From: Marasmius tenuissimus
Taxonomy: Eukaryota > Basidiomycota > Agaricomycetes > Agaricales > Marasmiaceae
Direction: 5' to 3'
NCBI GenBank assembly: GCA_029532415.1
Contig: JAQOTA010000046.1
Location: 372,001-436,000, forward strand
DNA: 64,000 bases
Made by a program: the position numbers and the translations under genes. Below, piece after piece: positions 39,875-49,140 of the stretch. The notes under the pieces are model-generated. The model saw only the letters and a list, made by a program, of their open reading frames with translations. It ran no database searches and was not told where the DNA came from. Every line of letters starts with the position of its first letter. Position 1 is the first letter of the stretch.

Positions 39875-40687
39875 CATACTGTACCATTTCGAGATGTTCG
39901 ACACGTCACAGGTCACAGGAGGCCCAATTCTGTTGTAATGTCACAGGTGTCACAGGTTCCAGGCCAATGTGTCGAAAACTCAAGGTGGTTGTGTTGAACA
40001 TGTGGTTACCATGTGATACACTTTATTGACGTGTTGTTTACGCGTCTATTATTTATAGACTCTTTCACTATGACACTTGCACTCGTATGAAAGATCCTGT
40101 ACTTACTCAGATGGACTCTGTAGTTAGTCAGTACTCACACCTTATCTCTATGGTTTATAACAAGGTTCAGCTTTGCACCCAATAGCATTCAAAGCTGACT
40201 GAGCTTTCTCTCTAGATTACTTAGATAGAAAGCTAGTATGACTATGCCTACTTACTCACTCTGCTCTTAGAGCACTTATGCTTACTGATATGCAATATGT
40301 ACCATATGCTATATTCTCACTTACCTATGTTCTATGACTTGTAGATAGACAAGGACTCTTGTATAAAAGCTGGAGACTTTGCGTCTCAAAGCTTTAGAAC
40401 AATCTACTCAATTATCACCTCTAGCAAGCATCTACAAGAACACAAGAATTCTCTTATAGTCAATATGTGAGGTTTTAGTTTCATCTCACTGTGCATTTAA
40501 CTATGCTGGCTCAATAGGTTGTCACCAGAGGGTCCTCAAATCGGGTCAAAAACTGTCCAAATATGGTAATTCTGTCGAAATTTTTCCTCTCCGTCACACC
40601 GGATCGAGCCCAGTGTCGAAAAGTTCAAGTGCATTTTTTCGTCACAGGTCACACCCTGTGTCGAACATCTCGAAATGGTACAGTATG
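39875..40687. mobile_element. MITE-C, split by a solo LTR
   Basis: Perfect 30-bp inverted ends occur at 39875-39904 and 40658-40687. Inside the likely TA duplication they read CTGTACCATTTCGAGATGTT. Without the nested LTR the element is about 283 bp. GTCACAGGTCACA motifs recur inside. The CTG start with TA matches MITE-A and MITE-D, suggesting Tc1/mariner-type elements. Confidence 0.8.
39992..40516 (+). mobile_element. Solo LTR nested in MITE-C
   Basis: The 525-bp LTR reads TGTTGAACATG...GGCTCAATA with perfect target duplication GGTTG (39987-39991 and 40517-40521). The last TCAATA is one base from the expected TCAACA. A TATA-like CTTGTATAAAAGC lies near 40358-40372. Confidence 0.82.
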
Positions 40688-40716
40688 CACTAGTCTGAGT
40701 CGGAGCGGAAGCGGGC

Positions 40717-40746
40717 TGTTACGCACTCCAAAAATGGAAGCCATCC
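40717..40746 (+). repeat. Left TIR of the DUF6589/RecQ unit
   Basis: TGTTACGCACTCC, an A run and GGAAGCC match the inverted copy at 46629-46658 with five mismatches. It lies 30 bp beyond MITE-C and about 140 bp before the first coding exon. Confidence 0.75.
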
Positions 40747-40887
40747 GGATAAGGAAATCGGCTTACAAACCATTCTCACTACTGCGAGGTCGTTCGCTTC
40801 TTGTCTTCTCCCTTCATCTCATCGTATCTGCTCTATTTTAACACCTCCCTACACCGCAATAGTGTATCTAGTTTCACTCGTACTTCA

Positions 40888-43800
40888 ATGAACTTCGATT
40901 TCATTACTGAAGATCCGTCCAAACCCCCTCAAAAACGTACGAAAAAACAAACACCTTTCACTCAACACGTCTTTCATATCAACGACCCGCCAGCTTCCGT
41001 CCAACCACGAAGTGAACCATTTCCTTCAAATCATGGCTTTTCTGGGACTGAGAGACCCGTCGCTGGAGATAGTGTCGGCTCTGAGAGGCAATGTTCATCC
41101 GAGGCACACTCGGAAAACATATCCGCTTCACCCGCCGATTCTTCTGACTCTCTGACCATTATTCACTATGAACCCCGTCCTGAAATCCCCGAAATCCCTG
41201 AATTCCAGCGCGTAGACAATGTTCTCGCGGCTATTCAAGCAAACTTTGCAAACCTTGGCGAGTTTCTTGCGGCTCTGTTCAGAAGTTTACCTCGAGACCA
41301 CCCCGATAATCACTTCACTACGCGACACCGGCAGATGGTGCAGTTTTTCCTTCAGGGAAGACATGCTATTACAGCCGTCATGATTGTCATCGCGATATAT
41401 AACCATCGTTACAGTTTCCCCACCAGCAAATCGGGGGAGAATCTCTTCGAGCGTGAAAAGGCTTTCTCTGCAACAGATGATGCCGAGAAGCTACGCTACG
41501 CTCGTGTTGCCATATCCATTTGGGCGACACAACTTCTTGGGCAGCATGTCTTCAAAGAGATGCACACCATGAGCCGTGGTGTCCCCACCGATCCCGAATT
41601 TCCTGTCCACATTACCTCCTCCGACCTCGTCAATCCTGACACTACTTTACACCTATTTGAAAACTTCTCGCTGGCCAACCGTGCTGTTATGTATAAGAAG
41701 AATCTCCCTCTCACCTGGTACCTAACAGAGTGTATGGCACGTCCGAAGGTGAAAGGAAAAAGTGGCGCGGTTGTAGTGGTAAGAAAGGCTCGTCCGCATC
41801 CTATAGTACGTGTTGGAACTTCAATTAGGCCAGGGGCTCTTATTCTAACGCGGTTTCTAACAGGTACAGGTCATTGCTATCAGCGCCGGTCTTCTTAGCC
41901 GAAATCGGTATGCTAATGGTTTTCTGGCGCTTCAGATGGGAGTCTGGCTCTTTGCCACCAAGGCCCATACCGACATTAAACGGGTTTTCTGTCGCATAGG
42001 TCTTTTGTTAGCGGATTCGACCATCCGCCAGAGTTTGAATGCCATAGGGCGTGCAAGCATTCAGCGAGTCCGGAGATTGATAGAGAGTTCTGTAGCACGG
42101 GACACCGGTGATATTGGATACCGACTGCTGGTCGATAATGAACAGCAGTATGTACGAGTAAGGGAGGAGGGTCTTTGTAAAGAAAACGAGCTTCGGGTTG
42201 GTTGCGGCGCTACTGCCGTGAAGTTGACAGATTTCAAGCCAGGCGCCTTTCACATTGCACCCCTTCTCGACGCCCGAATTCGGAACTCGGGGTCTACCGT
42301 GACTGTGGAAGACATTCGTCAGGATATAGATACAGCCCACCTTCGAAAGGTTGGAGCCCTTCATATCCTCCGTGCTCTCATCTCCTTCGAACCCAAGCTA
42401 CAAGATCTTGCACCTGACGTTTCGAAGCGCTTCCGGACAGCTCCCATCGCAAAGCACCGGATGAGGGATGGTTGGAAGACGGAGATACAACCTTTGGGAT
42501 GTAACTCAGAGAGGGAGGTGGAGACCCAGGGTATTCTTCGAGCAATACATGATTTTGCACAACAGATTGGCGTCACTGGGGATATTTGCGACAAACATGG
42601 TCTATGGGTTGGAGGGGACGGCGCAACGTTTGCAGCTATGCGTCGGGCTCAAGATTTTCTGTCCCCACATCCTTCAGACGGTTTTCAGACTCTTGGCGGC
42701 ATTATCCCGGGTCTTGAAATTTGGCATACCCGAGCAACCATGCTGAATACGCTTGCGACTAATCATTATGGCCCAGACACCTCAAAAGATCCGTCATCAT
42801 TATCACAGAATGCCAATGCTACTGGCATGAAACGTCCTACTGACACCAAGAGTTGCGATTTCTATCCAACGGCTCGTAGCATGACCTTATTCTGGGAGGC
42901 CCGGGTCCTTGATATTTGGAGGTGCGTTATAATTGATGATTTCACGGTATTAACCTCATGTATCAATAGGATTGAGCTCGCCGGCAATGGTACTCTACAT
43001 CAGTATTTCGAAAATTTGGCGGAGAAAAGCGAGCTACCAACCTTTGACAGTCTGTTGGAAAAGGCAGAGACGATTCACGACCGTTATTTCTCAGAAAATT
43101 CATACCATCATGCGCTGTCGAAGAGTCTTATGGATGTAGTCAAGAAGGAACAAAAATTCGCTATGGAACACCTTGGACTGCAAAAGAGCGAACTGAGACA
43201 GGTTCGGGTCTGGAGACCTCCGGGGCTGGCGTGTATGAGGAGGAGGAAGAGGAATTCAATGGAGACCGGGTACTAGCCAATTCAATTCTCTTCGTGCGAC
43301 ACTATCTCTTGTGGATTGAAGGTGCCTATGCAGTTGCAGAGGGAGATATTGGGCGCCTTTGGGAGATACTCAAGGTGACGATTGTCATGCTTTGTTTCAT
43401 TTTTGAGTGGTTTCTAACTTACCACGTACAGATGTGGATTTTCATGTTTTCCGGCTCGACGAACATTAATTATGTTCGATATCTACTCGAGATGTACTTC
43501 TTCTTCAAGTACGAAGCCTCAACAGATCTCAAGGATGCCATCTGGAACAATTGGCTGGTTAACCTGACTGGCTTACCAGGGCATGGATTGGAAGGTGATC
43601 TAATGCAAGAACATCATAACAAGTGGGTTGAAGACTTGGTAGGGAAGCACGGCGGAAATTTTGATGATTCCCTCTACCATGAAACGATTTCGCCGAACAC
43701 CCACTTATTCATTCATTTGAAAGAAGGTATCACGGATGCTTACGACCTGAAGCGACGTAGCAAATCCCATTCATCCCCACACCTCCGCAATGAGATTCAC

Positions 43801-44436
43801 ACACTTCTCAATCTGTTTGAGCGAGAGGAGCTCCATCTTTTCCGTCCGACTCGTTCCATGGGTTTTATTGCTGAGCCGTTGGCCGACTTAGGCTATAACA
43901 AGCTCTTTGATAAATTGGAGGAAGAGCAAGAAAAGCGTGCATTGCGTGCACGTATTCTCAAAATGGCACAAAACGCGAAGCTCAATCATTCCGACAAAAC
44001 CATTGATCAAGAGATTGAAGCTTTACGGACTATTGTACAAGAAGGCCCTCGTCCTGTGGCTATCTCTGTTCAGTCCACCTCGAACACCATATCACCCATG
44101 GCCATGGCTCTCTCTGAAACGCCCTCACCGCTCGAGCCAATGGATAATATCTCTACAGTCGGCACTTCTGAAAGCGGATCCGGAGAATACGAGAGAGACA
44201 GTGAGGCCAGCGAAGAGACAGCCGACCTCTCGGACCAGCCGTTACGTAGTGGCTCCGATCTTGTTCCAAGCACAGACGAGGTGACAGGCGGGTTGATGGA
44301 TGAATGGGTTGGGGATATGGGTATGGATGTGGACGAAATGATGGGATATGACGAGGATGACTGCGGCGAAGACTCTGAGGAGGAAGAGGCTGGACTTAGT
44401 GACGATGATCGCAACTGGAGTGATGGAGATGATTAG
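40888..44436 (+). CDS. DUF6589-family protein, four exons, one frameshift (about 1129 codons)
   Basis: Exons are 40888-41805, 41864-42921, 42970-43374 and 43432-44436, with introns of 58, 48 and 57 bp. The exon total is 3386 nt, one short of a multiple of three. Near 43182-43185 (an A run in CTGCAAAAGAGC) the frame must shift by one base, which restores ETGSGLETSGAGVYEEEE before the next conserved block. The N-terminus is low-complexity. Conserved-looking blocks are GLWVGGDGATFAAMRRAQDF, IIPGLEIWHTRA, GDIGRLWEILK, IFMFSGSTNINYV and WLVNLTGLPGHGLEGDLMQEH. The tail is strongly acidic (GLSDDDRNWSDGDD). I recognise the DUF6589 pattern from Agaricomycete proteins; its activity is not established. 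Conserved Asp, His and Glu residues in these blocks would suit an RNase H-like transposase, which is inference. Confidence 0.78.
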
Positions 44437-44451
44437 TACGTACACATAAAC

Positions 44452-46525
44452 TTAAAGTAAAGGTTCAATTGGCCGTCGGACCCGACGTGTACGAGCAGGG
44501 CCCATATCCGCAATGAGCTGAGAGGTGATTGAAGCCGGTTTGATTGTGTGGGCTTGATTCGTCTGAGAGCATGTAATATCTGCAAGAGCCGGCCTCTTGC
44601 TAACTCTTGTTGTGGAAGGGGAGCCTGGAGCTACTGTCAGCTCGTCGGTACGGGGTCGTTTGCGCGAAGTTTGAGCTCGGGATGGGAAGAGAAGTTTATA
44701 GAGAGCGGCGCCATGTGAATCAATGAATGTCCAACGGAAAAGATAGAGGATTGTGTCCAGGTGGTCCCGAGTCTTGATAGTAGCTATGTTATCAATGATC
44801 TGTCGAATGAGTGCCTCAGGAAAGTATGACGATCGTAACCGCGAGCCATCCTTATTTCTCTCCTCCAACCAAAGCTTTTCACCGAAATCTGTCAATCGTG
44901 TCTGATACTTGTCCTCATTTTTGGCACTTCTCTTCGATTTTTTTGCTGTTGACTTCCTTTTTCGAGGGGATGGATCAGAGGAGGGGAAAGAAATCGCTGA
45001 TGCGAGACCAGTGGGGATGGGTGGGGTATGGAATACGAGAGTCTTGTCTGACTGAGGCTCGCATAAAGAACATGGTAAATCCCTGTCTGCCTCGATGCAG
45101 GTTTTGGTGGTCTCCTCAAGGGGGTCGTTGTGATAGTAACGGTTGAGGAACGCAACATAGCAATTCTTCTCGGTCAGCAGCTGAGCTCGGCCCTGATCCA
45201 TAGGGCTTTTGCTGGTTCCTAGCAAACCATGAGCCAATGTTTGCCTTCAACGACAAGCGAACACACCTGCAAGTGACTTCTCGGCTGCCGTGATGGCCTT
45301 CTTCTGATAGAAAATGAAAGCACGTGAAGGCAATTCTCCCGAGCGCCCCACCCGCCCAAACTCTTGTACCACCTGGTTAAGCGTGCGAGCAACGCCTAGG
45401 CTGATACTGTCTAATAATGTTCGTATGTTAAGCCCCCATGCGAGGGCGACTGTTCCAATAACTATCTGACAATGCGGATCGTTTTCGAGAAGGTAGAGAG
45501 TTCGTTGGTTGTATTCATCAGGGCAAATACTGGTGTAGGTTCGAACACGGCGTAGGTAATCGGCATTATTTGGGAAGAGGGACATGAGATAGACGTAGAC
45601 AGTGTGAACAAGGTTCAGGCTGGCGCAATGTATGACAGCTTTGCGACCAGATGTAAGAATGGGGAGGAGCTCGGGGAAAGAGGTACCGGTGAGAGCTGAC
45701 TTGAGAGGTTGCATAATGAGCTGCATGTTCGGGCGTTCATTAGAGTTGCGTATGAGATGGTAGTTTCCTGGAAAGAAGCCAAGGCTAGTGCAGACTGAGG
45801 TGGTCTCGGGACCTGGTGCGAGAGTAGCTGTGATTGCGAAGACAGAGATATGGGAACCGAGTCGACCACGGAAGAATTTTCCAATGCGCTTGAAGTCCTT
45901 GCGGAAGTCTGCGCCCCACTCATTTATCAGATGTGCTTCTTCCGCGCAAGCGTAGACCAGATTCTTGCTAAATGTTGCATTGCCAGCAATCTTGCGCCAT
46001 TCTTCACTCCGTAGGTGCTCCGGGTCGACAAATATAACTTGGTACTTGATGCATTGTCCGATCTCTTCGACGATCTTGCGGTGCTCCCTTCTTGCCTTGG
46101 CCACATTTTCCTGGGTGAAAGCAAACGCAGAGATACCCACTTTCTGAAGTTCAGTGACCTGAGCGTCCATGTAAGCAAGACGTTGGGATTGAATTCGGCA
46201 TATTACGCACCAAATTTCCCGCTAGCCCTTTTGTTGGGGTTACCACAATTCCTACAGGCTTCTCCCGGATATTTCGAACCATCCGACCATGAGCAACTTG
46301 TCCGTTCCGAAGTGACAAGTGAACGAGAATAGGCACTATAAAAAGTGCAGACTTTCCCCCGCCAGTAGCAGTACAGCATAGCACGTCTTCACCATCGAGA
46401 ATCCGGGCAATTGCAGCCTCTTGAAATGGTCGCAGGCCGTTCTTCCAGATGGGAATTAGTTGGGAGATAGTTTCGTTGAGTAATAGAGAGCCTTCAGGGT
46501 CTTGCCATCGTAGGAATGGAGCCAT
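44452..46525 (-). CDS. RecQ-like DEAD/DEAH helicase of Agaricomycete type (657 aa)
   Basis: Exons 46525-46211, 46158-45267 and 45218-44452 (introns 52 and 48 bp) sum to 1974 nt in frame. Motif I is TATGGGKSALF, Ia VTPTKGLAGN, II AEEAHLINEWG, III TATL, V IGTVALAWGLNI and VI EFGRVGRSGE. Motif II reads EEAH where DEAH is expected. After the helicase core there is a cysteine-containing segment (CYVAFLNRYYHN, LPCSLCEPQ) and a basic, serine-rich tail with an RKRPRT-type nuclear signal. The start at 46525 (MAPFLRWQDPEG) fits the family; an in-frame ATG exists at 46564. A DNA-unwinding role is expected. The gene faces the DUF6589 gene tail to tail, and no frameshift is seen. Confidence 0.85.
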
Positions 46526-46628
46526 TTGCAGTTGAAAACACGTCGAGATGGAGGCGAGAAGCAACGTTCAGCGCTGCCCGCTAATCGGCAGGCATACACA
46601 AAGGGATGGGAAAATAAAACCTATTTTG

Positions 46629-46658
46629 GGTGGGCTTCCTATTTTGGAATGCGTAACA
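46629..46658 (-). repeat. Right TIR of the DUF6589/RecQ unit
   Basis: This is the inverted partner of 40717-40746 and lies about 100 bp upstream of the helicase start. A separate short hairpin (CAGACTTCATATCC / GGATATGAAGCGTCTG) lies just outside it, at about 46677-46733. Confidence 0.75.
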
Positions 46659-49140
46659 AAGCACCCCCTCTCTGTGACAGACTTCATATCCACCCGCCCT
46701 CACCACCACAAAAAAGGGTTTTCGGATATGAAGCGTCTGTTTCTAAGAGACTAAGTATGCACCCATAGATTCAGTAAGTTTACCTCAGTGCACCAGTGAA
46801 AATTAGTTGGGGAGAAGGTTGAGATACAACTGAGGTGGCCCAACAGAAATCAAAACATAAGACTTACCAAAAACAGTATATCATTTCACGTGACATTACT
46901 ATATGTAGTATGTTGCTCCCACCGGAGGTTGGTCGGTCGGGCTCGAGGGTCCTCAAAAAAAAATACGACATGGTTTTACTTTTTTTTTTCTATGCCTACC
47001 CCTTGCCAGAGGTAAGGCTCAGACCCAGACCCAGACTCAGACTGATCGGCTCAGACTGCTTGACTCAGACTCCTGGATTCCTGGTCGCTCTCGACATGGC
47101 GCTGTCGCCATTGCCCTCGCAGTTCCGCGAGACGACTGCAAGTGCGACTTGTCTCAGATTGTGCATTGATGACACACGGAAAGGCTCGTGCTCGCAACGC
47201 CACTGCCTGGGTTCTTGTACACAATGCTTTGGAACCTGCGCTATAGACTTAGTGTCACAATGTCATTACCTTGTATACTTGTCTCAGGTCCCTCTCCGGA
47301 AATCGGAGGAATGGAGGATTACACTTATCTGATTGCTGAATTGTAGGTCTGTCACGCGGCCCCTCACGGACGAGCAAGCTGAGTTGTGAGGGGCCTGTAA
47401 AACGGAAGCAAATTCTTTTCATGAAATTGCCAAAGCGCCAATTGTCAGATGTGAGTTTTCTGTCTCTCGTCAGTAGCAACAAAGAAGGTCGTCGTAGTCG
47501 GCGCACCTCAGGCATACCCCCAGGTACCTATTAGGTATGATCGTATAGTGACGAATATTACACCTAATAGGTACCTTTTGTAGGGAATATTTCCGCGATT
47601 GGAGATATCCAGGGCCCCTCTCGTGGAGATCCCCAGCCCCGCCAGTCGTCGTCGCTAGCCAGTGGTTTTGTGACGTGATGGCTGTGGGAGGGGTTCCAAT
47701 CCCGACGAATTTCTGCACGAGTTGGGGTTGGTATCGGCTCCCCGTAGGTGGTATGGGCAGGCTGGGAGGTAGCGTGTCTCAACTGGGGCAAGGCTATGGC
47801 GCACACGCGTGTAGGGCTATAGAGAAATAATTCATATAAATCGTTCGTTAGGTATCCTACTATAGGCTAATCTACTTAGACAATAATATGCTATTATTTT
47901 TAGCCATGTTATTAAGGAGTAATAGCTAGAGTTTGTCTTGAGGTGTAGCGTCCAGTGACTTCAAAGGTAGCGTGGTGAGTACCCTGTACAAGCCTCGGCC
48001 TGCAGAACCTAGACAGGGCAGGCACGTTGGAGATCTCCAGCGTCAACCGTAGTGGGGAGTAGGCGTTACATGAGTTCCCCACCGCTTCCGAGCTGTTTGA
48101 GTGCGGCACGTGTAACCGTGTATACGTAGCAACTTGATGAAGGTATGATGGATAATACTTGAATTCAAGCGCTGTGTCTTCTTGTTTACACTGGCATCGA
48201 GCTCTGCCGCAGCGGGAGTGAGCCGTATGGATTTGGAGAGGGAGACGCGGAGGCGGAAGAGGGGGAAGTATAAGCGGTGATTTCTTGCTGGCAGAAATGC
48301 CCACCACGCCATGAACGTTGGAATCCTGACCATAATTTATTGGACAACTAGATCAAGGCTCAGTTTGAAAATCACATTCTACTGGTCATGGAAACGAGCT
48401 CAAAGATTCGGCTTGAACGCGATGGCTCAGCACCCAGCAGATTATGGTCTCTGGGGTCTTAGACTTTAGTCTTTGGAAACAGCCATATTAGGAAGGAGGA
48501 CCGAGGGTATCAGTAGCCATCACTGATGGGAAAGCGCAACCGTCCGGCCATCCATAGGAGATCTCTAGCGGGGTAAAGCCTAGGGCACATCAGATGTGCT
48601 GGAAATCTCCAAGCTCACACACTTTTCTCTAGCTCATGGGAGCAATAGGAACATTGAACGTTGCGAATGCCGTTGGCACCTACAAGGGGGGGGGGAAAAT
48701 AAAATTTATGACCCACACTCGAATTTTTTTCAAGGCAGGTCGAGGGGACTAACTAGCTACGTAATTTCCATATATGGTAAGACTTACCTTTTTTGGCTGC
48801 CCGTCCGGCAATCTCCGAGGTTTTTCACTGACCAGCCTACGCTGGCATCTCTAGAAGTGGCGGCCATGAGTTTGGAGGGTGCTTATCATCCTGTGGAGCT
48901 CCACCTGAGCCTGACCTCAACTGAAGTCGCGCCTGGGGTGGGGTATGCCCCATACCCACTTAAGCACCACTACAAGGGCTACAGGTGGTGAAGATGGTGC
49001 TAAAAGGTAAGATTTAGGTTGATTTTCAGCGAGAACAAGCGATTTTCAAGGACACAGTCTGTTCCAGCTCCTTCCAATGCCTTCAAACGGCCTCATACGT
49101 CGAAAAAAAATTGGCCTAAAATTTTTTTAAGGACCCCCGA
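46659..49140. other. Stretch without a gene
   Basis: This contains the hairpin near 46677-46733, homopolymer tracts near 46965-46990 and 48685-48694, and the perfect inverted repeat at 47522-47576. No coding or RNA gene is recognised. Its last 8 bases (49133-49140) are the target duplication of element X. Confidence 0.5.
47522..47576. repeat. Perfect hairpin (15-bp arms)
   Basis: AGGTACCTATTAGGT and its exact inverted copy at 47562-47576 enclose 25 bp. It could be a tiny foldback remnant. Confidence 0.7.

Follow-up and report, generated by a model that had tools for sequence, protein, structure and literature searches.

A two-gene transposon of Marasmius tenuissimus with a DUF6589 gene and a RecQ-like helicase gene, most likely a member of AcademH

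The window analyzed here, a 64,000-nucleotide stretch of the genome of Marasmius tenuissimus (contig JAQOTA010000046.1, assembly GCA_029532415.1), contains two multi-exon genes, one for a DUF6589 protein on the plus strand and one for a RecQ-like helicase on the minus strand. As the earlier note on this DNA had described, the genes are convergent, with the stop codons 15 bp apart (44437–44451). Both lie within a transposon of 6063 bp (~6 kb; 40691–46753), which carries TAGTCT at each end and is flanked by identical 9-bp direct repeats, AGTATGCAC, directly adjoining the TAGTCT at 40691 and its complement AGACTA at 46753 (Table 1).

Table 1. Positions in the window of the transposon, its ends and its genes
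Feature	Position	Strand	Basis or remark
Whole transposon	40691..46753		TAGTCT ends, 9-bp duplication, nested-repeat junction, right end common to two other loci
Left target-site duplication copy	40682..40690		AGTATGCAC; same as 46754–46762
Right target-site duplication copy	46754..46762		AGTATGCAC; same as 40682–40690
Left terminal TAGTCT	40691..40696	+	also at other family ends
Right terminal TAGTCT (AGACTA on +)	46748..46753	-	9-bp duplication adjoins; family ends compared
Left subterminal inverted repeat, candidate transposase-binding site	40717..40746	+	25/30 match with 46629–46658; spacing kept in 607-bp copy
Right subterminal inverted repeat	46629..46658	-	25/30 match with 40717–40746; core present
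Right terminal hairpin	46682..46733		arms CTTCATATCC (46682–46691) and GGATATGAAG (46724–46733); ~20 nt from end
DUF6589 gene, proposed DDE transposase	40888..44436	+	PF20231, 3.8e-45 and 3.9e-53; NCBI protein PM082_018428 (P0001)
RecQ-like helicase gene	44452..46525	-	exons ~46525–46211, 46158–45267, 45217–44452; splice sites by eye from sequence and relatives

The boundaries of the transposon are supported by the two repeats that it separates. The left flank is a repeat present elsewhere in the genome (C23 and C32; 94–96% identity) and terminating in CAG plus TA, and on the right stands another repeat, whose C11 copy (93% identity) starts TATGCACCCATAG. An insertion at 40691–46753 with a 9-bp duplication predicts that the flanks, fused with one copy of the 9-mer, restore a clean junction between both repeats, and CAG-TA-TGCACCCATAG is such a junction. 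The argument rests on the meeting of the two repeats, because the complete junction is not present at any one place in the genome; among 41 rows of a genome search with the joined flanks, none was an empty site spanning both sides cleanly, and two extended 6 bp beyond the junction but with final bases unlike the window. The right end is shared with two other loci, which match the window at 46683–46752 and 46688–46753 (94–95% identity; the 30-bp inverted repeat discussed below lies outside the matched stretch) and both diverge from it beyond the shared end. Matches reaching the terminal base do not alone prove a break, since the queries stopped there, and only loci with inspected flanks were counted. 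The duplications, the nested-repeat junction, and the many copies described below support the view, already taken in the earlier note, that the element is one mobile unit. The repeat at ~40517–40686, which ends in CAG beside TA and has many relatives in the genome, looks mariner-like, a label that is a guess; the transposon was inserted a few bases from its end.

In the earlier note the unit was instead bounded by a pair of 30-bp inverted repeats. These repeats exist as described (40717–40746 and 46629–46658, with 25 of 30 positions identical), and their core TGTTACGCAYTCCAAAA has exactly two exact occurrences in the 71-Mb, 70-contig assembly, both within the repeats, while the reversed pattern has none; the proposed genome search for the core therefore recovered the two copies of the window and no other exact one. 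Their inverted match and their being the sole exact pair in the genome would suit the idea that the TGTTACGCA repeats are the true termini, but the adjoining direct repeat is a weak 8-bp one (5/8, by eye), related DNA continues outside the repeats, and the flanking repeats meet only if the outer ends are taken as the termini, leaving that idea hardly any probability, and the repeats were ruled out as termini. They sit 26 bp (left) and 95 bp (right) internal to the true ends and the 9-bp duplication; that the insertion boundaries do not coincide with the repeats is the finding that the earlier note had named as contrary to its proposal. The subterminal repeats may instead be transposase-binding sites, a putative role suggested by a 607-bp relative (C10), in which shared DNA extends to either side of the right-hand repeat and the spacing from repeat to end is preserved, and by degenerate versions that occupy the equivalent position in relatives on C19 and C23 (by eye).

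The DUF6589 protein of the window matches PM082_018428 (P0001) of M. tenuissimus, an agaric of the Marasmiaceae. By eye, from comparison with P0001 and relatives, the exons were placed at approximately 40888–41805, 41864–42921, 42970–43082, a part up to 43374, and 43432–44436; for ~43083–43160 the reading is tentative, either an intron, as in the NCBI model, or a frame shift. The structure model of a DUF6589 homologue matches DDE transposases, with a best Foldseek E-value of only 0.027, and the best matches among the families compared are hAT (Hermes) and P-element transposases. The model contains a conserved D-D-E set (D389, D550, and E848 in P0007 numbering), which is predicted to be catalytic. 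The modeled fold and this set support the assignment of the DUF6589 protein as the proposed DDE transposase of the element, in agreement with the transposase-like function and the RNase H-like fold envisaged in the earlier note. In a Pfam scan of 42 DUF6589 members, DUF6589 was found in all 42, and each of five other families appeared in a single member (best, 0.037), with no transposase family besides DUF6589 at E ≤ 0.1. Protein searches for wider relatives returned at least 3, at least 52, and at least 22 proteins; the named ones among the matches listed are all from genera that we take to belong to the Agaricales.

The second gene codes for a protein with matches to the DEAD (7.1e-13) and Helicase_C (1.7e-4, just under its cut-off) domains, and to E. 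coli RecQ (PDB ID: 1oyw; 1.1e-12); its main exon matches the TIGR00614 recQ_fam model at 8e-26, below the family cut-off. Motif II (45931–45942, minus strand) reads EEAH in this copy versus DEAH in RecQ in the PDB alignment. Across the genome, 98 exon matches to DUF6589 were resolved into 43 loci. At 30 of these, a RecQ-like helicase lies no more than 3.5 kb away, a number that rises to 32 at 10 kb; conversely, among 36 loci related to the helicase of the window, 32 have DUF6589 no farther than 10 kb away. The adjacent pairs anticipated in the earlier note are therefore common in the same genome, and this co-occurrence supports the helicase as a partner traveling with DUF6589, its role being a putative one deduced from sequence. 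The gene order is convergent in the lineage of the window and divergent in another. At 11 of the 43 DUF6589 loci (C69:216186, C7:6844664, C28:3197895, C30:299495, and others), no RecQ-like helicase was detected within 10 kb; these loci may be decayed, split (as the C61 copy is), or members of a helicase-free lineage.

Target-site duplications were surveyed at 39 loci, both ends being covered in 25 (including the 607-bp copy). An exact 9-mer was found beside TAGNCT ends at 13 of the 39, the window among them, versus 1 of 1482 mismatched pairs, and duplications of 8, 10, and 11 bp were found at 1, 0, and 0 of the 39, respectively. The duplicated sequences vary, consisting of AGTATGCAC and 12 others. 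One further locus has a duplication matching at 8 of 9 positions, and in another, on C37, a 9-bp duplication flanks an element with TAGTCT as its left end but TGGGTTTC as its right end; no 9-bp duplication was found in the remaining 10 of the 25 loci covered at both ends. In the near-identical copies of sets C and D, the homology stops at the TAG ends, the right end of one set D copy (C30:693600) being broken (by eye). Set E (the C6/C7 copies) does not fit, as its homology limits are sharp, yet no 9-bp duplication is seen there (by eye). The C37 copy (396125–404300) is 98.7–99% identical to the C61 copies; its right boundary lies 83 bp internal to the TAGTCT end of C61, and is nonetheless flanked by the 9-bp duplication GGCAGCAAG, as would result from the use of an internal end.

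A hairpin precedes the right end of the window copy, and such stems recur in the family. With a stem starting no more than 20 nt from one end, a score of 9 or higher was obtained in 7 of 13 elements versus 4 of 260 control pairs. The score of the window is 8, and the 95th percentile of the controls is 7.05. By folding energy, 4 of the 13 elements have at least one 110-nt end with a z-score below −3, versus 1 of 52 controls; the right end of the window reaches −2.9. The 13 elements include copies of the same families and are not independent. The combination of a helicase with a terminal hairpin and, after it, a short tail that finishes in CTA recalls a rolling-circle Helitron-like element. Helitrons are not known to leave a target duplication, in contrast to the exact 9-bp duplications here; the modeled transposase fold is DDE-like, and no Rep/HUH or Pif1-type domain was found in six open reading frame (ORF) pieces at E ≤ 1. 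A Helitron-like origin is accordingly given almost no weight.

One insertion seems to involve one end only. At locus L088 (C10:4841150–4841800, positions 516–604), one of the two loci that share the right end of the window, a 71-bp insert consists of only the right-end hairpin and terminus, surrounded by an exact 9-bp duplication, GCGCTCGGG; one of its two ends is thus no ordinary terminus, and the joined flanks matched only themselves in the genome. At the second of these loci (L089), no 9-bp duplication was present in the stretch examined, even allowing one mismatch. Five short set C end matches (L095–L099), sought as one-ended insertions, have outer flanks all unlike each other and no 9-bp duplication within the stretches examined, and at least two of them resemble tiny elements with both ends (by eye). 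The right terminus of the divergent-gene subfamily (L005:533–632) also recurs, with 19 of 41 match rows reaching the terminal base, where the query stopped, and unlike flanks in the five that were inspected; these termini probably represent many small non-autonomous elements. A broader proposal, in which DUF6589 would define its own superfamily of DDE transposons, appears rather unlikely. Its members would combine a helical-insert transposase of P/hAT type and a RecQ partner with a hairpin end joinable to the target with the opposite end lost, as the right-end-only 71-bp insertion with its 9-bp duplication suggests.

For the cut-and-paste-type transposon that we favor, we infer the catalysis, the end recognition, and the role of the helicase, as well as its place among known lineages, as follows. 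The DUF6589 transposase would recognize the ends through TAGTCT and the subterminal and hairpin sequences, cut them, and join them to the target with a 9-bp stagger, by which the 9-bp duplication would be left behind. The RecQ-like helicase probably unwinds or processes the terminal DNA, perhaps at the hairpin-prone ends, or may alternatively aid repair of the donor and target. DUF6589, a Pfam family of unknown function, thereby gains a role that can be tested, that of a DDE transposase with a helicase partner, and the DUF6589 genes of mushrooms, which are labeled as hypothetical proteins in annotations, could be reassigned to transposons. The precisely defined ends, the 9-bp duplications, and the terminal hairpins allow tests of what a cut-and-paste element would need a RecQ helicase for.

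Among known systems, the modeled transposase resembles those of hAT (Hermes) and P elements in its RNase H-like core and in a large helical insert that precedes the final acidic residue, and we know of no RecQ partner of either. Published hAT duplications measure 5–8 bp, usually 8 (PMC12730594, in part). Here, in contrast, they measure 9 bp at 13 of the 39 loci and 8 bp at one. Kolobok transposons duplicate TTAA, and the 9 varied bases duplicated here therefore disfavor KolobokH, the form of Kolobok that carries a RecQ helicase and has been reported from fungi only. In the passages concerned of PMC9587614, a fungal DNA transposon with a RecQ helicase is indeed described, as is a red-algal Kolobok with RecQ on the complementary strand, but RecQ lies downstream of the transposase domain there, versus separate convergent genes here; KolobokH is thus a very improbable assignment.

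The remaining comparison is with AcademH, published in 2020 for animals and fungi (PMC10045372 and PMC10799480), and described in the passages on it as helicase-encoding with 9 or 10 bp duplications (PMC10045372) and as low-copy in Basidiomycota, Ascomycota, and Mucoromycota (PMC10799480). As these passages and those on KolobokH describe helicase-bearing transposons already, the undescribed type suggested in the earlier note is probably not what lies here. A superfamily apart from Academ, combining a DUF6589 DDE transposase, a RecQ-like helicase, and 9-bp duplications, and only resembling AcademH, would accord with the literature search, in which no report of DUF6589 as a DDE transposase was found by Pfam name or accession (none for DUF6589, and for PF20231 a sole match to an unrelated optics paper), a search that a paper describing the protein without its Pfam name would escape. 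It would accord also with the link to Academ being one of description rather than of compared transposase sequence, and with the TAGNCT ends and hairpins being unmentioned in the short AcademH passages. Such a separate superfamily is nonetheless doubtful, as duplication length, helicase, and host range all agree with the AcademH statements. Putative non-autonomous Academ insertions have been noted in Marasmius oreades (PMC8290104, in part). AcademH, unlike AcademX, is without the XPG nuclease, and likewise no XPG was found in the six ORF pieces of the element at E ≤ 1; all 15 XPG_I places of the genome are more than 10 kb distant from any DUF6589 place (by eye). Altogether, the element is most likely a cut-and-paste-type DNA transposon with a DUF6589 DDE transposase and a RecQ-like helicase partner, best filed under AcademH because its helicase, its 9-bp duplication, inside the reported 9 or 10 bp, and its fungal host, among groups including the Basidiomycota, agree with the published passages.
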